A stretch of DNA of 32,408 bases, from positions 1 through 32,408 of the forward strand of contig JACRBX010000103.1 in the NCBI GenBank assembly GCA_016219225.1, given 5' to 3'. The stretch comes from Deltaproteobacteria bacterium. GTDB taxonomy: Bacteria; Desulfobacterota; RBG-13-43-22. The translations under genes were made by a program, and so were the position numbers. Numbering within the stretch: the first letter of the stretch is position 1; each line of letters begins with the position of its first letter. Positions 21,702 through 32,354 of this stretch are shown one piece after another. Below the pieces are notes generated by a model that had not been told where the DNA came from, searched no databases, and saw nothing but the letters and a program-made list of their open reading frames with translations.

Positions 21702-22118
21702 ATGGATATCAAACCAATAATAAACTACTTTGAAACCCGGAGGGATGTTGCTTTTGCCTTTTTATTCGGCTCGCAAGCCCAGGGAAGGGCGACGAAACTA
21801 TCGGACGTGGATATCGCCGTATATTTTTATCCCGAACAAAGGCACCCCGTAGAGTACGAGGAAGAGGTTTTTTACCAGGGGGAAAATGAGATCTGGTCGG
21901 ATTTGGAAACCCTTCTAAGAAGAGAAGTCGAACTATTGGTATTGAACCGTGTGGCGGCTTGTGTGGCGGCCAGTGCCATAAGGGGCATCCCCCTGGTCAT
22001 TAACGACTGGGGGCTCTATCTTGACTTTATGCTGACCATAACAGACGAAGGCGACGATTTCATGGAATATATTATTAATGACTATAAAGAGAGAGCCTTA
22101 ATTGAAAAAAGAAGTTAA
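21702..22118 (+). CDS. MntA-like nucleotidyltransferase (antitoxin-type)
   Basis: The 138-residue protein has the GS-x10-DxD motif of MntA adenylyltransferases: FAFLFGSQAQGRATKL then SDVDIAVYF, at about residues 20-43. The rest (LETLLRREVELLVLNRVAACVAASAIRGIPLV) follows the pattern of MntA antitoxins of type VII TA modules, where MntA AMPylates the HepT RNase encoded immediately downstream. Here the downstream partner seems to be broken (22102-22211). The ATG at 21702 directly follows the CTCCGAA repeats, without a clear Shine-Dalgarno. It differs from the shorter MNT protein at 2027 in length and sequence. Confidence 0.85.
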   Translation: MDIKPIINYFETRRDVAFAFLFGSQAQGRATKLSDVDIAVYFYPEQRHPVEYEEEVFYQGENEIWSDLETLLRREVELLVLNRVAACVAASAIRGIPLVINDWGLYLDFMLTITDEGDDFMEYIINDYKERALIEKRS

Positions 22119-23291: not shown

Positions 23292-23555
23292 CTAAAATTT
23301 ATCAATCAAATCATGGGTACCCACAAAATGGAGTTGATAGATGGGGCCTTCTTTTTTAAAGACACACCGATAGCCTTTATCTACGTAAAATTCCCAATAA
23401 TCCGAGCCTTCAATTTGATGCACCTGTAAAGATCTATGTTTGGGATTATCTTTTAGAAAAGCTAACTGTTTTTTGAATTTCTTTTTGATATCTTTGGGGA
23501 GGAGGTCATACTGCGAAAGAAATTCGGCTTCGATGGATAGGACAATCTGATTCAC
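23292..23555 (-). CDS. RelE-like toxin paired with an AbrB-type antitoxin
   Basis: The 87-residue protein has the RelE/ParE-family pattern: ALLPKDIKKKFKKQL-type helices (here YDLLPKDIKKKFKKQLAFLK), HRSLQVHQIEG, a YWEFYVDKGYRCVFKKEG strand pair and LHFVGTHDLIDKF. HxLxxHKL-EG...YWxFRVxxxYRxxF is typical of mRNA-interferase-like proteins of this family. The start overlaps the antitoxin stop by 4 nt. The pair is strongly AT-rich compared with holB. Pairing of a RelE-type toxin with an AbrB/MazE-type antitoxin is a known mixed combination. Confidence 0.87.
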   Translation of the reverse strand: MNQIVLSIEAEFLSQYDLLPKDIKKKFKKQLAFLKDNPKHRSLQVHQIEGSDYWEFYVDKGYRCVFKKEGPIYQLHFVGTHDLIDKF

Positions 23556-23824
23556 TCTTTTAGATCCCCTAAGAGATCATCGATACGGTCATACCTCTTA
23601 AAATTACCGGCCTGGAAGTTTTTTTCCGCCTTTTTTATTTTTTGTTGGATCTCTTCCGTCCAAAACCAGGCCTGGGACCTGGGAACATTTATAGTGGGTT
23701 CTAAAATAATTTTGCCTTTAGAAATTTTAAATATTAATTGGTCTCCGGTTTTAATGCGGAGCCTTTCCCTGATTTCCTTAGGTATGGCCACTTGACCTTT
23801 TTGGGATACGGTGACGGCTTTCAT
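23552..23824 (-). CDS. AbrB/MazE/SpoVT-type antitoxin
   Basis: The 90-residue protein starts with a swapped-hairpin DNA-binding domain: KAVTVSQKGQVAIPKEIRERLRIKTGDQLIFKISKGKIILEP (residues 2-45). The remaining part (WFWTEEIQQKIKKAEKNFQAGNFKRY then DDLLGDLKE) is the charged, toxin-wrapping tail. The operon has its own promoter and an inverted repeat over the -10 box (23843-23876), which fits autoregulation. A good AGGAGA precedes the ATG by about 8 nt. Translation is coupled to the toxin (4-nt overlap). Confidence 0.92.
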   Translation of the reverse strand: MKAVTVSQKGQVAIPKEIRERLRIKTGDQLIFKISKGKIILEPTINVPRSQAWFWTEEIQQKIKKAEKNFQAGNFKRYDRIDDLLGDLKE

Positions 23825-24629: not shown

Positions 24630-26207
24630 TTAATCCTCCACCAAACGAGCATCTTCGTGGCTTAACGAAAAAGAGGCTTTCGCCGAATCATAGATCAGGC
24701 AGGAATTCTTCTGCCAGTTTTGATCATCTTCCTGGAGAAAGTCCTGGCGGATAAAGCTGCCCCGGCTCTCCTGACGGGCGAGGCCGGCGTTCAGGATGGC
24801 TTGGGTTACCAGTACCCCGGAAAGAAGATCTTCTTTGAGCCGTCTTTCTTCGATGGTGTGCGACATCAGGGTCTGTAATTGGGCCCGAAGCGCTTCGATT
24901 TCCGCCAGGCCGTGCTTCATCCCGGCTTCTGTGCGCAGGATACCGGCCTGATTCCAGGCAATGGCCCGCATCTTTTGCCGAAGGTCCCTGAGCCGGTCCA
25001 GGGATGGCTTTTCCCCTGGAGTCCAACCCATTGATTCCTTTTGCACTGAGGTCCTGGCCAACGGGTTGGTCCGGGCATAGAGGGCCGCACTCCGGCCGGC
25101 AATTTTACCCATGACCGCACATTCGGTCAGGGCATTGCCTCCCCGCCGGTTAGCCCCATGGAGCCCGGAGACGATTTCCCCGCAGGCAAATAGACCGGGT
25201 AAGGCCGTCCCTCCCCGGGCATCGGTCCGGACACCCCCCATAAAAAAATGGACCGCCGGTGCCACAGCTATCGATCTTCTTTGTACGTCTAAACGGACCT
25301 TTTTAAAAAGGCTCTTTCGAAGGTCTTCCCAGGGTTCTTCCGGAATCGCACTGCCGTCCAGATAAACCGGACCTTTTTGGTCTTCTTCATAAAGTAAGAC
25401 CGAAAAGGCATCCCGTTTGGTCATAGCGGCTGTGTTGATATTGTCCACCTGCCATTTCTTCAGAAGATCTTCACCGGAGGCATTGATCAACTTGAGTTCT
25501 TTCGGGTAAGGGGGATAGACCAGCATGGACGGCAGGCGCGGCTCATTCAACACCAAAGGGTAAAACTGCACGAATTCCATGTCCCAGAGGGAAAGACCGG
25601 CCCTGGCCGCCAGGGCATATCCCTGGCCCATGGTGCTTTTCTGGTTGTCGTTCCGGAGATAAATCCCACCCGCACCGCCGGTGGCCAGAATGGTCGCCGG
25701 GGCCGTCAGGACCATTTCTTGTCCCTTTTCATCAAATCCTTTAACCCCGTTAATTTTTTCTTCCCCCAGCAGTTCGGTGCAATAAAAATTTTTTAATAGG
25801 GTCGCCCCTTCCAGGCCGCTTATCTTTTGGGCGATGGTCTTTACCATAACCAGGCCGGGGATGGTATCGGGATTCGGGGTGCGCACAAAAAACTGGCCCC
25901 TTCGTTCTTCCAGGTCAAGCCCCATGGCCTTAAGGGTGGTCATGGTTCCGGGGGCCTCCCGGGCAATCCGTTTTACATAATCAACATCGTTGATCCTCCG
26001 GCCAACCTCGATCGTATCCGCCACATAGGCTTCCAGACTGTATTCGGTAGTGGGTGCGGCAAAGACCCCGTTAGCCATGGCCGAATTGGTCCCCCGGCCC
26101 ACAGATCCTTTGTCTATTAATAGTACCTCTGCCCCCTCGGCCCGGGCGGCATAGGCGGCCATCATTCCGGCCAGTCCGGCGCCGATCACAATCACATCCG
26201 CGTTCAT
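24630..26207 (-). CDS. FAD oxidoreductase, fumarate reductase/aspartate oxidase-like, altered active site
   Basis: The 525-residue protein belongs to the SdhA/FrdA/NadB flavoprotein family. It has a FAD-binding VIVIGAGLAGMMAAYAARAEGA (residues 5-26), ILATGGAGGIYL near 173, the arginine of the TKRDAF segment (Arg265), HFFMGGVRTD (His320), and LFACGEIVSGLHGANRRGGNAL (339-360). The usual QFHPT histidine is replaced: EFVQFYPLVL has Tyr216. There is no histidine for covalent FAD in TNSAMANG. It is third in the operon after Fe-ADH and AOR (43-nt gap). A soluble reductase or oxidase linked to the other two is plausible; the substrate is unknown. No Fe-S or membrane subunit follows. Confidence 0.87.
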   Translation of the reverse strand: MNADVIVIGAGLAGMMAAYAARAEGAEVLLIDKGSVGRGTNSAMANGVFAAPTTEYSLEAYVADTIEVGRRINDVDYVKRIAREAPGTMTTLKAMGLDLEERRGQFFVRTPNPDTIPGLVMVKTIAQKISGLEGATLLKNFYCTELLGEEKINGVKGFDEKGQEMVLTAPATILATGGAGGIYLRNDNQKSTMGQGYALAARAGLSLWDMEFVQFYPLVLNEPRLPSMLVYPPYPKELKLINASGEDLLKKWQVDNINTAAMTKRDAFSVLLYEEDQKGPVYLDGSAIPEEPWEDLRKSLFKKVRLDVQRRSIAVAPAVHFFMGGVRTDARGGTALPGLFACGEIVSGLHGANRRGGNALTECAVMGKIAGRSAALYARTNPLARTSVQKESMGWTPGEKPSLDRLRDLRQKMRAIAWNQAGILRTEAGMKHGLAEIEALRAQLQTLMSHTIEERRLKEDLLSGVLVTQAILNAGLARQESRGSFIRQDFLQEDDQNWQKNSCLIYDSAKASFSLSHEDARLVED

Positions 26208-26250
26208 GATTCAAATCCTTTTATTTTCTTCATGTTTTTCGGATAAGCTT

Positions 26251-28086
26251 TTATCCCCAGAGATCCCTGGCTGCCTGTTGAAGTCCCAACTCCTGGAGTT
26301 TTTCCCTGGCCGGTTTTCCCGTTTCCCAGTCCCAGGCACTGACGGCGTAGAATTCCTTGAGCATCAGATCCATATCCGGCTCTATCCCGGCGGTGGAGCC
26401 TTCTTTCAAGGCCTGGCGGGCGATTCGCGGCAAATGGTCATCCTTTCGGGTTACGCCCAGCAGATTGTTGATGGCCCGCTTGAGGTTCAGGGAGCGCTCT
26501 CCGAAGGCAAGTAAATCCATGGTCTTAAAATTTGTACCGGTAACGGCCGAAAGTATCCGGGCGATCAGGGCAGCCGGCAACGGGGAAAACTCGCACAAGG
26601 TGAAGCTGTTGTAAAGCTCACAGAAGTGCAATATCTTGGCCGTCATGGCCCCTTTTTGCCGGGGGTCATTTTTATTGGAAAAGGTGATGCCGACGTCCAA
26701 TCCGGTTTCATTTCCCGGGGCATCCAGATTATAAAAACTGCCTTTCAAATGACAGGCCCCTCTTGGGCCTACGGCATAGGCCAGGGCTGCCCCCTGATAG
26801 GCCCGGGGATCATGCATGGGAAATTCCAGGCCTTTCACCTGAGCCGCTTCTTCGGGATCGACCCCAAGCTCATTGGCCATGACCTTGACGCCCTTGGACA
26901 AAAGGACGCCGATGCCCTCCTGGCGGATCATCATTTCCAGGAGCTTTAGGATGACGGCCCCATCGCCCCAGGTAATTTCCATCTCCGCCTTTTCCCGGGT
27001 CAGGATCCCCTTCTCATACAGGTGCATGGCAAAGGCAATGGAGACCCCGGCCGAGATGGTATCGATGCCATGGACATTACACAGATGGTTGGCCCGGACC
27101 ACGGAATCGATGTCGAAGTTCAGGCACAAGGGGCCGAAGGCGGCCACGGTCTCATATTCCGGGCCATCCACCCTTTTGATCTCTTCGCTGAAGTCCTTGA
27201 TGACCCTGCCGCAACCGATGGGACAGCCGCTACAGGCATAATGGGTCATATTATAGCGGGACCGAAAGGCCGGACCGTGGAGCTTGGCCGCCGGAAAGAC
27301 GCTCTTGGTAAAATACTTGACCGGCACATCGGCCAGACGCATCCCCAGATCCATGTACATATTCGTTCCGAAGAGGTGATAGCCGTTCTTGTTGGGAAAG
27401 CTCTGAATGCATTCCCGGGCCTCATTGATGAGGCTTCTAAGCTTTTCCTGGTCGGACGGCTCTGCCTTTTGGTTTCCAGAAACGACCACGGCCTTAAGAT
27501 TTTTTGCGCCCATCAAGGCCCCCAAACCGCACCGGCCGGCGGTCCGGCCTTCGTCGTTCATGATCCCGGCAAAGCGGATTAATTTTTCCCCTCCCGATCC
27601 GATACAGGCCGTGGAGGCCTTCTCATCGACTTCCCTGGCCAGGAGATCCTGGGTTTCATAGCTGTCCCGGCCCCAGAGGTGAGACCCATCCCGGATCTCC
27701 CCTTTCCCATCCTTCACATAGAGATAGACCGGCCTTTCCGCCCGGCCGCAGATGAGCAGGCCGTCAAAACCACTGCCTTTTAGCCTTGTGGGAAATTGCC
27801 CGCCCGTGGTGGCCTCTCCCCAAAGACCGGTCCCCGGAGCGATGCCGCAGATAGCCGCCCGGCTGACCATGGGCACATTGGAGCCGATAAAAGGCCCGGT
27901 GGCAAAGACCAGGGGGTTTTCCGGAGCCAAAGGGTCCATTCCCGGTTTGACATAATCATAGATAATTTTAGCTGCCAGGGTTGATCCGCCGACATAATTT
28001 TTCAAATCATCCTCACTGAGGGTAAAATCTTCGATCCTTTTTTCGGTAAGATCCACCTTTAGGAATTTTCCAAAATATCCTTTCAT
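26251..28086 (-). CDS. aor: Tungsten-type aldehyde:ferredoxin oxidoreductase
   Basis: The 611-residue protein oxidises aldehydes to acids and reduces ferredoxin. It matches the AOR family from its first residues (KGYFGKFLKVDLTEKRIEDF, then YVGGSTLAAKIIYDY). The [4Fe-4S] ligands are Cys285, Cys288 and Cys292 (YACSGCPIGCGR) and Cys498 (YNSFTLCEFSP). GSGGEKLIRFAGIMNDEGRTAGRCGLGALMGAKNLKAVVV around residues 163-202 is the pterin-binding part. The start is 4 nt after the Fe-ADH stop; the Shine-Dalgarno GGAGGT spans that stop, so expression is coupled. Tungsten rather than molybdenum is a family inference. The MoaD-like protein at 5045 could serve cofactor synthesis. Confidence 0.95.
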   Translation of the reverse strand: MKGYFGKFLKVDLTEKRIEDFTLSEDDLKNYVGGSTLAAKIIYDYVKPGMDPLAPENPLVFATGPFIGSNVPMVSRAAICGIAPGTGLWGEATTGGQFPTRLKGSGFDGLLICGRAERPVYLYVKDGKGEIRDGSHLWGRDSYETQDLLAREVDEKASTACIGSGGEKLIRFAGIMNDEGRTAGRCGLGALMGAKNLKAVVVSGNQKAEPSDQEKLRSLINEARECIQSFPNKNGYHLFGTNMYMDLGMRLADVPVKYFTKSVFPAAKLHGPAFRSRYNMTHYACSGCPIGCGRVIKDFSEEIKRVDGPEYETVAAFGPLCLNFDIDSVVRANHLCNVHGIDTISAGVSIAFAMHLYEKGILTREKAEMEITWGDGAVILKLLEMMIRQEGIGVLLSKGVKVMANELGVDPEEAAQVKGLEFPMHDPRAYQGAALAYAVGPRGACHLKGSFYNLDAPGNETGLDVGITFSNKNDPRQKGAMTAKILHFCELYNSFTLCEFSPLPAALIARILSAVTGTNFKTMDLLAFGERSLNLKRAINNLLGVTRKDDHLPRIARQALKEGSTAGIEPDMDLMLKEFYAVSAWDWETGKPAREKLQELGLQQAARDLWG

Positions 28087-28090
28087 CGGT

Positions 28091-29386
28091 CTACCTCCAG
28101 GTCTCTGATTTCATATCAAGCAATCTACCTTCATAAGCCATTAGAAATATATCTTTGAGCTGCTCCCTGGTCAGGTCGTACCAGCCGAAATAGAAGGCCG
28201 GGTCGGTCGGGGTTTGGTCCAGGATACGATCCAGCTTTTTTTCAAATGCATCCCGGGGGACACCGGCCTGATTGAGACTGGTGGGCAGGTTTATCTTCGT
28301 CATCAGAGCACGAATCTTTTCGATGAGGTCGGCCAAACTCTTTTCATCGGAGGCCTTGTCCCGGCAACCCATCCGGTCGCAAATCTCCAGATACCGGTCG
28401 GTCGCTTTTGAATAAACCTGAAGCTCGTAGGGGAGGAACAATAAAACCATAATGCCGTGATGAATGTGGAACAATCCCCCTATGGTGTGCCCCAAAGCAT
28501 GGGAGATGCCGGAACCGGCATTGCTCAAGGGGATCCCGGCCATCATGGCCGCCTGCTGCATCTTCATCCTGGGCATCAGGTCATTGCCGTCGTGAACGGC
28601 CTTGGGCAGCCACTCGAAAACCATCTCTATGGCCTTGAGGGCCACGGCCTGATTGAGTTCATCGGCCCTGGGGGCCATGAAGCCGTCTACGGCATGGGCC
28701 AAGGCGTCGCCCCCGGTTCCGGCGGTCAGATCAGGAGGCATTCCCACGGTAAAGGTCGGGTCCAGGAGGGCAAAGTCGGGAACGAATTCCGGCAAGGCCC
28801 CACCTGTACCCAGCTTGACGCCGTCGGGGAAGGAGACGACGGCGATGCCGGTCACCTCCGATCCGGTACCGCTGGTGGTGGGGACGGCCACCAGCTTGGC
28901 CTTGTGCCGCAGATTGAGGGGGATCAGGGGGCTTAAGATTTCGAAGTTGGCCTCCGGATGTTCATAGAGCAGCCAGGCGGCCTTGGCCGTATCCATAGAC
29001 GACCCGCCGCCCACGGCAAAGATGAGGTCCGGACCGAACCGGCGCATCTTTTCGGCGCAGTCCTTTATAGTATCCACCGGCGCATCGGGTTTGGACTTGG
29101 CCCAGGTTTCGAATTTTATTCCGTGTCTTTTTTCATAGGGACTCTTGATCTTGCTTGTGAATCGTACGGCATATTCATCGGTGACGATAAAGGCCTTCTT
29201 GCTCTTGCACTCCTTAGCCACCAGATCAACCGAATCGGGAAGCAGCCCGGCCTTATCCAGAAAAAGATTGAGTCCGGAAAATATGCGGGGGACAAAAAAG
29301 GGTCTTTGAACTTCCTTTAAAAACTCGGCCTGCACCATGGGACCGCCCCAGGTTCTCAGCAAATATTCATGGGACCAGTAGCTCAT
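28091..29386 (-). CDS. Iron-containing alcohol dehydrogenase
   Basis: The 431-residue protein is a group III (Fe-ADH) dehydrogenase. The cofactor site is FAVGGGSSMDTAKAA (about residues 122-137), followed by PTTSGTGSEVTGIAVV (about 168-183). The metal site is in DALAHAVDGF (Asp and His) and GISHALGHTIGGLFHIHHG (two His). The first 35 residues (WSHEYLLRTWGGPMVQAEFL) form a longer N-terminus than in many Fe-ADHs. It should interconvert an alcohol and an aldehyde with NAD(P)(H). It is the first gene of the operon with AOR; GGAGG precedes the ATG by 6 nt. An aldehyde produced here can be consumed by AOR. Confidence 0.94.
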   Translation of the reverse strand: MSYWSHEYLLRTWGGPMVQAEFLKEVQRPFFVPRIFSGLNLFLDKAGLLPDSVDLVAKECKSKKAFIVTDEYAVRFTSKIKSPYEKRHGIKFETWAKSKPDAPVDTIKDCAEKMRRFGPDLIFAVGGGSSMDTAKAAWLLYEHPEANFEILSPLIPLNLRHKAKLVAVPTTSGTGSEVTGIAVVSFPDGVKLGTGGALPEFVPDFALLDPTFTVGMPPDLTAGTGGDALAHAVDGFMAPRADELNQAVALKAIEMVFEWLPKAVHDGNDLMPRMKMQQAAMMAGIPLSNAGSGISHALGHTIGGLFHIHHGIMVLLFLPYELQVYSKATDRYLEICDRMGCRDKASDEKSLADLIEKIRALMTKINLPTSLNQAGVPRDAFEKKLDRILDQTPTDPAFYFGWYDLTREQLKDIFLMAYEGRLLDMKSETWR

Positions 29387-29544: not shown

Positions 29545-29898
29545 TCAGGCCGTGACAAATTTAATGGCCGCCCCGAACCAGGTAAAGGAATGGACCTGAC
29601 CGTCAATACCCACCTGGTGATTCTGCAGGGCCGCCTTGATCCCTTCCTCCCCTTTTTTTAGGGCGCTGAAGGCTGTTTTTGCATCACCCCAGATCATAGC
29701 CGTGTCATAGTCGTTTAAAACGGCGTCCGCTGAAAACCGGCCGTCTTTAAAGATGAACCGCTTTCCTCTTTTTCCATCCCTGGTTTTGATGACAACAGTA
29801 CATTCATGCCCCATAAGGAATTTTTTAAAATTTTCATTGATCCTGGCCGCCTTTTTAAACTTGGATGCCAGTATGGCCAGAATGAGAGAAAAACCCAT
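29545..29898 (-). CDS. Small SCP2-like protein
   Basis: The 117-residue protein has an N-terminal hydrophobic helix (GFSLILAILASKF), then a sterol-carrier-like pattern: FKKFLMGHECTVVIKTRDGKRGKRFIFKDGRF, DTAMIWGDAKTAFSALKKGEEGIKAALQNHQVGIDGQVHSFTWFGAAIKFV. The W(G)D/S-x-x-TA-x-x-x-L-x-x-G sequence and the following ..V.GD..... segment resemble SCP2 domains, which bind lipids. The Shine-Dalgarno AAAGGAGG precedes the ATG by 8 nt. It lies between the class II aldolase-family gene and Fe-ADH on the same strand, with gaps of about 200 and 160 nt, so it could be separate. The function is unknown. Confidence 0.65.
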   Translation of the reverse strand: MGFSLILAILASKFKKAARINENFKKFLMGHECTVVIKTRDGKRGKRFIFKDGRFSADAVLNDYDTAMIWGDAKTAFSALKKGEEGIKAALQNHQVGIDGQVHSFTWFGAAIKFVTA

Positions 29899-30100: not shown

Positions 30101-31486
30101 CTAATCCGCCAGGTCCGAAACATCCTCTTCCTTACCCGTGCCCAACCCAAAATCGGCCTGTTGTTTTTCCACCTTGACCAAAGGAATAAATTGACGAACC
30201 AGATCCTGGGTCCCGCCCACCTGGAGCTGATCAAAATAAAATCCGAACTTTGCTTCCAGGGTCTTTCGAATAGCCGATCGAACGGCTTCCGGTAAACCCC
30301 ACATTTCGGCTTTAAACGGCCCCAGGCCTTTTTTCCGGGTACTGTAAAGAAACTGTTCTTCGGTCTTCCCGGTCTTCCATTCGTCGGCATGTTTGGATTT
30401 CAAATAATCGTAAATATTTTGTCTTAAATCTTGAGGAAATTCTTCGTGGTCATAAATAATATTTTGAAAGCCCGTGGCCAGATGCACCTCCACGGCGTCG
30501 TGGGTGACAAACTGATTAAAGGCCTCATCCGGCAGGGTGGAGGCCCCGTGCTGGACCGTGCCGCCCATGCCGTACCCGGTCCTGGCCACCAGGGAGAGAT
30601 CCTTCAAGACCTTAAAATCAATGGCCACCTGGGCCAAAGTGCCGTCGGGCAGGACCACCCCGCCGTGACTCGTCCCGGTCTGGATGCTGATTTTAGAAAG
30701 ACCAGGGATTCCGGCGGGGAGGGCGGCCATGAGGCCGTCCATATAGGCCCGCAGTTCCTTTTCGTCGCTGTTCTTTCCCCCCACCTCTCCGATCTCACCG
30801 CCCACGGAGATAGTGATTCCCGGCGGTTGATGTTTTCGAATAAAGGTCGTAAATCGGGCACACAACTCATAGTTGGCCCGTTGTTGTTCGGCCACCGTGG
30901 CTTGACTTAAGTCCACCAGGGTGGAGGTGTCGATGTCGATATTGTAAAACCCGGCTTCTATGGCCTCCTGGATGAGTTGTTCAATGGCCTTTAATTCGTC
31001 TTCGGGTTTTTCCTTGAATCTTTTTCCGCTGACCTGAAAATGATCCCCCTGGATAAATAACGGTCCCTGAAAACCCTCTTTTATGGCTGCGGCCATGACC
31101 GCAGAAAAATATTCCCTGGGCCTCTGGGCCGTATAGCCGATTTCCGAGCGGGCGATCTCGAAGATCAAGGCCCCGACCTTTCTTTGAACCGCGGCCTTAA
31201 AAGCTGCCCGGGCGCAATCATAGGTCATGGCCCGGAGATTAATGGCCGGAACGGTAAAGGGTTGGGGGATCTCTCCGCGGCCGACGGCCTTGTAGAACGC
31301 ATGGATGGAAGCCGGATAAATTCCAGCCGCCTGCCCCACTTCCCAGATCAACCAGCAGGCATTGGCCTTTTGGGCGGCCTCTCCAAAAACGGCCTGGTGA
31401 ATTAATTGATCGATGGTCTTTTCTCTTAGCTGTTTTTCATCTAAAATGGTTACCCCCTCATGTGGATGGACCTTTATCGAATCCAT
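30101..31486 (-). CDS. Class II aldolase-family protein (FbaA/GatZ-like)
   Basis: The 461-residue protein has the TIM-barrel plan of class II ketose-bisphosphate aldolases: FTVPAINLRAMTYDCARAAF near residue 77, FIQGDHFQVS near 145 (Asp-His pair), a FYNIDIDTSTLVDLS strand, ISVGGEIGEVGGKNS near 224, IQTGTSHGGVVLPDG near 265 and MGGTVQHGASTLPDEAF near 307. These give the metal-binding His/Glu/His positions of the family. It is longer than ordinary FbaA (about 350 aa), with extra N- and C-terminal parts. GatZ/KbaZ-like partner roles are possible. The substrate cannot be named. GGAGGAGG lies just before the ATG. No sugar operon surrounds it. Confidence 0.8.
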   Translation of the reverse strand: MDSIKVHPHEGVTILDEKQLREKTIDQLIHQAVFGEAAQKANACWLIWEVGQAAGIYPASIHAFYKAVGRGEIPQPFTVPAINLRAMTYDCARAAFKAAVQRKVGALIFEIARSEIGYTAQRPREYFSAVMAAAIKEGFQGPLFIQGDHFQVSGKRFKEKPEDELKAIEQLIQEAIEAGFYNIDIDTSTLVDLSQATVAEQQRANYELCARFTTFIRKHQPPGITISVGGEIGEVGGKNSDEKELRAYMDGLMAALPAGIPGLSKISIQTGTSHGGVVLPDGTLAQVAIDFKVLKDLSLVARTGYGMGGTVQHGASTLPDEAFNQFVTHDAVEVHLATGFQNIIYDHEEFPQDLRQNIYDYLKSKHADEWKTGKTEEQFLYSTRKKGLGPFKAEMWGLPEAVRSAIRKTLEAKFGFYFDQLQVGGTQDLVRQFIPLVKVEKQQADFGLGTGKEEDVSDLAD

Positions 31487-31577: not shown

Positions 31578-32354
31578 TCAAAGCTCAGCAGCCTTTAAAT
31601 ATTCTGAAAAGTGAAGAATTTTTTCGGCCTCCTGCTTCTGCATCAGAAACGGGGCCACATCACGGGCAAGATGACTGAAGTCGAGCTCTTTGCACTTGAG
31701 GAGAATCTGTTTCCGTATTGCTTCCCTATCAGCTATTCCCAGTTTGTCCTTCAGGTAATCAAGATTTGGTCTGCTTTTTCCCAGCAAGAAAATGATATCA
31801 TAAAAATCCCTTCCCATCGGGCGTTTTCTGGTAAAGAGACAGGTAATCTTCTGCGACAGTAGTATATCTACTGGTACGACATGTATCCTTACGAAGACAT
31901 CAAACTTATTGAGGATCACCTTCTCCGGAGTGTAATCAAAGCCCTGCGGCTCGGTATCCACCTGGATTGTAAGTCGTTCATCCCGGTGGCGGGAGATTCC
32001 ACTATAAAAGAGTATTTTCGGAATGCGAATGGAAGACCGGTAGGTGGTCCGTATGGTGTTCTTTACCTCCGTTTCGTACCCCTCAAGGGTCAATCGATTA
32101 TGGAGAAGGCCGGCCAGGTTTTCAAAACTTTCCTGATCCAGGGAACGATTATCGAAATCCAGATCTTCGGAGAAGCGTTTTCCGGCATGAACGAATCGGA
32201 TCGCCGTGCCCCCCATAAAGGCCAGGCTGTTGGCATAGGGGGAAGTGAAAATGATTTCGAGGATCTTGTATTGAAGGTATTCCCGAAGAAGATTCTTCTT
32301 AAAAGGGCGGAGAGGTTCGGGATACCAGGATTCGATCTGAGAGAGTTCAAGCAT
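31578..32354 (-). CDS. AbiEii/AbiGii-type nucleotidyltransferase toxin
   Basis: The 258-residue protein has the AbiEii signature: FMGGTAIRFVHAGKRFSEDLDFD (about residues 46-68), which is the GG-T..R...RFS.DLDF nucleotidyltransferase motif, and a later DILLSQKITCLFTRKRPMGRDFYDIIFLL (about 162-190), which carries the second conserved block (K...L..R....RDFYD). AbiEii proteins are GTP-binding-type toxins of the AbiE phage-defence/TA systems, usually encoded after AbiEi. The ATG at 32354 overlaps the end of an upstream gene that leaves the window. AT-rich compared with the aldolase gene. Confidence 0.93.
   Translation of the reverse strand: MLELSQIESWYPEPLRPFKKNLLREYLQYKILEIIFTSPYANSLAFMGGTAIRFVHAGKRFSEDLDFDNRSLDQESFENLAGLLHNRLTLEGYETEVKNTIRTTYRSSIRIPKILFYSGISRHRDERLTIQVDTEPQGFDYTPEKVILNKFDVFVRIHVVPVDILLSQKITCLFTRKRPMGRDFYDIIFLLGKSRPNLDYLKDKLGIADREAIRKQILLKCKELDFSHLARDVAPFLMQKQEAEKILHFSEYLKAAEL

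Follow-up and report, generated by a model that had tools for sequence, protein, structure and literature searches.

The locus described here raises the question of whether a flavoprotein gene, which directly follows the genes of an iron-containing alcohol dehydrogenase (Fe-ADH) and an aldehyde:ferredoxin oxidoreductase (AOR), belongs to the pathway of these two enzymes. Within the window, i.e., the whole stretch of 32,408 nucleotides that has been analysed, the initial annotation had described three tightly spaced oxidoreductase genes on the minus strand, and this arrangement has been borne out, with gaps of 4 nt between Fe-ADH and AOR and of 43 nt between AOR and the flavoprotein (FLAV, Table 1). 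Inspection of the genes beside FLAV in the window has likewise confirmed that it has no neighbouring Fe-S or membrane subunit. The three genes are alike in composition (GC 0.555-0.556, GC3 0.62-0.69), the Shine-Dalgarno-like AAGGA is located 8 nt 5' of the FLAV ATG, and a hairpin of 6 bp at 26256-26241 spans the AOR stop and lacks a T-run. A consensus scan of the AOR-FLAV gap has revealed neither a promoter nor a terminator, and therefore co-transcription of FLAV with AOR appears plausible.

Table 1. Positions of the features discussed in the text (window coordinates unless a locus is named).
Feature	Position	Strand	Size or spacing	Basis or remark
Fe-ADH, Fe-containing alcohol dehydrogenase (group III)	28091..29386	(-)	431 aa	Pfam Fe-ADH/ADH_Fe_C; alignment to AdhE ADH domain 3zdr
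AOR, tungsten-type aldehyde:ferredoxin oxidoreductase	26251..28086	(-)	611 aa	AFOR_N/AFOR_C; alignment to P. furiosus AOR 1aor
FLAV, free-standing FrdA/NadB-superfamily flavoprotein	24630..26207	(-)	525 aa	Pfam, predicted structure, PDB comparison, distribution
U, small protein, tentative SCP2-like fold	29545..29898	(-)	117 aa	Copies upstream of the four closest ADH-AOR operons; weak profile match
AOR-FLAV gap	26208..26250	(-)	43 nt	AAGGA at 26220-26216
MBL-fold alkylsulfatase	L162:3507-6030	same as U	178 nt before U	
MBL-fold alkylsulfatase	L165:4553-6755	same as U	52 nt before U	

The host genome (5.9 Mb in 353 contigs), from a Desulfobacterota family that is uncultured, carries a dsrA gene scoring above the cut-off, and the organism thus appears to be a dissimilatory sulfite/sulfate reducer; the two loci of this family also present in the GTDB scan derive from MAGs. 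Its 15 AOR-family matches represent a large set of tungsten/pterin oxidoreductases. Elsewhere in the window, toxin-antitoxin-like genes are found at 1630-2341, 21702-22118, 23552-23824, and 31578-32354, the set comprising a HEPN/nucleotidyltransferase pair (recognised by eye), an MntA-type antitoxin, a MazE/AbrB-type antitoxin, and an AbiEii-type nucleotidyltransferase.

The conserved alcohol dehydrogenase-AOR pair

Both enzymes of the pair are readily identified. Fe-ADH matches the Pfam families Fe-ADH (E 4e-34) and ADH_Fe_C (E 4e-39), retains the GGGS nucleotide motif and the D/H/H/H metal ligands when aligned to the AdhE structure, and carries an N-terminal extension of ~50 aa that is unmatched in solved relatives. 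AOR is covered over its full length by AFOR_N (E 4e-70) and AFOR_C (E 4e-111) and aligns end to end with the Pyrococcus furiosus enzyme (E 1e-106), including the 4Fe-4S motif CxxCxxxC, the fourth Cys, and the active-site His of RGxCHxK. The P. furiosus enzyme is archaeal, and its gene context differs from that of the window.

Orthologues of AOR (E <= 1e-185, at least 52% identity) have been found in 17 of 395 genomes drawn from the phylum, many of them MAGs; this count includes the window genome, and identities outside the window range from 52 to 77%. Counting the window and both copies of genome G332, these amount to 18 loci, and Fe-ADH is placed directly upstream of AOR in all 17 in which upstream DNA is visible, the eighteenth (L155) having lost this region to a contig end. 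For genome G034, masked bases cover the ADH gene except for the part encoding its C-terminus, which alone is readable. ADH and AOR therefore form a closely linked, conserved unit. The genes that come after AOR in the other loci, where visible, include an opposite-strand Zn-ADH as well as small toxin-antitoxin-like, nitroreductase-like, and MoaD-like genes, the last in G022, G023, and G174 and absent from the window.

A pathway from alcohol via aldehyde to acid, as proposed beforehand for Fe-ADH and AOR, is supported by the key residues, the linkage in 17 of 17 loci, and a published pair. In the sulfate reducer Desulfotomaculum (Desulfofundulus) kuznetsovii, an ADH gene adjoins an AOR gene as it does here (Desku_2952/2951); the conversion of alcohol to acid is described with formation of NADH and reduced ferredoxin (PMC5770442), and the adjacent pair has proteomic support (PMC5770442, PMC10907483). 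The ADH-AOR half of the locus is thus an already known kind of module.

Distribution and gene neighbourhood of FLAV

The flavoprotein has been found to behave differently from this pair. It had been suggested that FLAV takes up electrons from the AOR pathway or acts on its product, and that the order Fe-ADH-AOR-FLAV would recur in relatives. FLAV follows AOR in the window alone and in 0 of the 17 other AOR-orthologue loci. A role as carrier of AOR electrons is unsupported; action on the acid product is possible. Nor does FLAV always accompany the two enzymes. Homologues have been collected, together with flanks of up to 10 kb, from GTDB contigs, and 0 of the 80 nearest among the matches listed, a GTDB-wide listing that may omit records very near the window's genome, adjoin an ADH-AOR pair of the window type.

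In close relatives FLAV is absent or located elsewhere, an outcome that the initial annotation had named as refuting its proposal. Within the group whose ADH-AOR operons are 72-78% identical to that of the window, two of three genomes yield no match to FLAV at 1e-40, and those of the third (G272) are all distant and lie elsewhere; in the same-genus genome G002 the sole homologue is distant (33%) and lies on another contig. The same-family genomes G003 and G004 encode FLAVs with no ADH or AOR nearby, and these are not sisters of the window FLAV in the tree. Its sister (support 0.9) is instead the homologue of locus L075, whose acid-catabolism cluster includes a fumarase subunit, MmgE/PrpD, and a CoA-transferase but no ADH-AOR.

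These observations bear upon the idea of FLAV as a dedicated operon partner, which would take AOR or ferredoxin electrons or, as a built-in third step, convert the acid that AOR forms. The short gap with its own Shine-Dalgarno motif and no recognisable terminator or promoter would suit such a role, as would the enoate-type pocket described below, which could accommodate the acid product, and a distant cluster (L136) unites another AOR, another Fe-ADH, fumarase subunits, and a FLAV homologue of 34% identity. Yet FLAV is missing after every other AOR orthologue, and an AOR of any kind occurs within ~10 kb of FLAV in four of the 80 listed loci (L088, L113, L134, L136), a frequency which by our own estimate is close to chance given 5-15 AORs per genome; a Fe-ADH is also present in L136 only. 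Taken with the lack of a window-type pair beside the listed homologues, this makes a dedicated partnership improbable.

Alternatively, FLAV may be an unrelated gene that has reached its downstream position by chance, through a local insertion or rearrangement in the window lineage, in which case read-through would have no functional meaning. The placement of the L075 sister, the position of the G003 and G004 proteins apart from it in the tree, and the highly diverse neighbours of FLAV across its relatives would all be expected under such a history; the tight same-strand spacing and a GC3 resembling that of the adjacent genes speak against it. We regard this explanation as a serious possibility, if short of probable. 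On the evidence of gene order and phylogeny, FLAV is best described as a probable lineage-specific downstream neighbour that lies outside the conserved operon.

In other genomes, FLAV is surrounded by genes for CaiB-type CoA-transferases, fumarase subunits, MmgE/PrpD, UbiD, and TAXI/TRAP transporters (assigned partly by Pfam and partly by inspection), neighbourhoods that fit small-acid catabolism. Neither a constant partner gene nor an electron partner has emerged among the neighbours of the relatives, which are too diverse, and no Fe-S subunit gene has been recognised among those listed.

Several of these neighbourhoods have features of their own. The L136 cluster (L136:4447-12491) is a co-directional catabolic set of Zn-ADH, AOR, Fe-ADH, two fumarase-type subunits, the FLAV homologue, and a DapA-like aldolase. 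A FLAV subclade (L099, L101, L107, L112, L116, L118, L125) lies beside genes for a TAXI-type solute receptor and a large TRAP-permease-like protein, a conserved arrangement to which some loci add a ~90-aa protein directly upstream. At L059:1500-4135 and L100:9160-11548, a ThiF/MoeB-like gene (Pfam-confirmed in L100) directly precedes the FLAV homologue, which in L059 is also accompanied by a ThiS/MoaD-like gene.

Active-site residues of FLAV

FLAV consists of a FAD_binding_2 domain (E 3e-47) and a Succ_DH_flav_C domain (E 7e-17), and its alignment-based structure model (pLDDT 90.7) most closely matches Escherichia coli FrdA (TM 0.85, 25% identity), with NadB close behind. Shared superfamily, identities of ~25%, and TM-scores of ~0.8 might suggest that FLAV is the flavosubunit of a fumarate reductase or else a second L-aspartate oxidase. 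Its scores, however, fall far under the respective cut-offs (230 vs. 452.75 bits for the nadB equivalog, 235.5 vs. 567 for sdhA/frdA), H232 and E245 of FrdA are replaced, the His for covalent FAD is absent, and a separate nadB is located on contig C46 between nadA-like and nadC-like genes (by inspection). Both assignments have been rejected, and we consider such an identity very improbable.

The FLAV positions have been mapped by a profile alignment of 47 sequences to FrdA, whose numbering and residue roles we take as given. The covalent-FAD residue H44 corresponds to Thr40 in FLAV (Thr in 39 of 47), H232, which contacts the second carboxylate, to Y216 (Tyr in 40, Phe in 7), and E245 of the Glu relay to Y231. 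R287, H355, and R390, by comparison, are retained as R265, H320, and R354 and are invariant in all 47 sequences, so that the catalytic Arg and one carboxylate clamp are kept. FLAV therefore has the fold, the FAD domain, and the catalytic Arg, His, and Arg in common with FrdA and NadB, and differs from them by a Tyr in place of the second-carboxylate His, the missing Glu relay and Fe-S partner, and an expected non-covalent FAD.

A similar set of replacements is known from urocanate reductase UrdA (6t85-6t88), in which Tyr373 takes the place of the fumarate reductase His, the Glu relay is missing, and an Arg/His/Arg clamp holds a single carboxylate; its Y373H variant gains fumarate activity (PMC7921117, PMC10882135). 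Since FLAV keeps the FrdA-type clamp and shows the same His-to-Tyr switch, it is probably a monocarboxylate oxidoreductase that acts on an enoic acid in the manner of a 2-enoate oxidoreductase. A dicarboxylate substrate is possible as well, given the fumarase subunit in the cluster of the L075 sister. FLAV is not itself a UrdA, as it has a SdhA-type C-terminal domain (Succ_DH_flav_C) and no FMN-binding domain; Pfam detects in FLAV neither this nor a haem domain for electron entry, such as UrdA and Fcc3 carry. The subfamily is a soluble, fumarate-reductase-like, and uncharacterised one.

The U protein and the alkylsulfatase link

A better-supported conserved partner of ADH-AOR than FLAV is a small protein, U, whose gene lies 158 nt upstream of Fe-ADH. 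Copies with 67-70% identity precede all four of the closest ADH-AOR operons (72-78% identity). An aldolase-like gene further upstream (30101-31486) has been considered as an additional operon member and rejected, as it is not seen near these four. Pfam does not match U itself, and SCP2 and Alkyl_sulf_C each reach no better than E ~0.05, in one homologue. A U family profile aligns collinearly with the alkylsulfatase C-terminal domain over 75 columns in hhalign at a weak E of 0.0038, compared to 0.06-0.55 for shuffled or reversed controls, which is suggestive, not proof, of an SCP2-like fold; a single-sequence model (pLDDT 41) and a two-sequence hhalign comparison have both been uninformative.

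More distant U homologues occur in other settings. At L180:1-1863(-) and L182:1480-3342(+), a U-like domain is joined N-terminally to a molybdopterin oxidoreductase of ~990 aa that resembles pyrogallol hydroxytransferase (Pfam on L180), beside 3-hydroxyacyl-CoA dehydrogenase-like and SDR genes. In L172-L179, L181, and L185, homologues of 30-39% identity adjoin a thiamine-diphosphate enzyme gene, with an epimerase/3-beta-HSD-like SDR often on the other side, and form an uncharacterised conserved cluster.

Directly upstream of U, two of the four closest operons (L162, L165) carry true members of the SdsA1 alkylsulfatase family, of MBL fold and with an SCP2-like C-terminal domain (Alkyl_sulf_dimr, Alkyl_sulf_C, and Lactamase_B); none is present in the window or adjacent in the other two operons. 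As any such gene is found in 68 of the 395 genomes, its adjacency twice in four operons is very unlikely to be due to chance. Alkylsulfatases free alcohols from alkyl sulfate esters (review PMC3920027). Anaerobic degradation of linear alkyl sulfates is known (PMC5445686). Among the papers searched, none links AOR with alkylsulfatase. The gene order points to hydrophobic primary alcohols as likely substrates of the U-ADH-AOR operons; in the window genome, the one distant alkylsulfatase-family gene lies on another contig, and the alcohol would thus be assigned by orthology only.

The D. kuznetsovii proteins are abundant on methanol and ethanol, and the sections of the report at hand, from which the likeness is drawn by description only, characterise the pair on these substrates and describe no U protein or alkylsulfatase (PMC5770442). 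By analogy, the pair of the window might oxidise ethanol or methanol. Against such a short-chain role stand the alkylsulfatase and the possibly SCP2-like partner of the closest operons, and we consider it rather unlikely.

We favour, with some confidence, an explanation in which a U-ADH-AOR core for hydrophobic alcohols has acquired FLAV as a lineage-specific addition with monocarboxylate chemistry. The conserved Fe-ADH-AOR pair of this dsr-bearing Desulfobacterota bacterium, which in the closest relatives follows a small and possibly lipid-binding U protein, would oxidise a hydrophobic primary alcohol, probably long-chain and, e.g., freed from alkyl sulfate esters, to the aldehyde with NAD+ (Fe-ADH) and further to the acid with ferredoxin (AOR); the pair could run in reverse, too. 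FLAV, probably read through from the ADH-AOR transcript, would use non-covalent FAD to interconvert a saturated monocarboxylic acid and its alpha,beta-unsaturated counterpart. Gene content, linkage, distribution, conserved residues, and predicted fold are observed here, and substrates, direction, and co-transcription are inferred. A bolder version, on which we would place little weight, is that U-ADH-AOR forms an uncharacterised module by which sulfate reducers handle fatty alcohols from alkyl sulfates anaerobically, a stand-alone lipid carrier supplying ADH and the tungsten AOR, and that FLAV has been recruited in the window lineage to desaturate or reduce the free acid so formed, with no activation by CoA.

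A misleading third partner is thereby removed from the ADH-AOR pathway, and attention shifts to U and its alkylsulfatase link, which makes the substrate question testable with surfactant-type and fatty alcohols under sulfate-reducing conditions. FLAV, for its part, defines a subfamily of the FrdA superfamily that is widespread in Desulfobacterota, and its residues predict monocarboxylate over fumarate chemistry.
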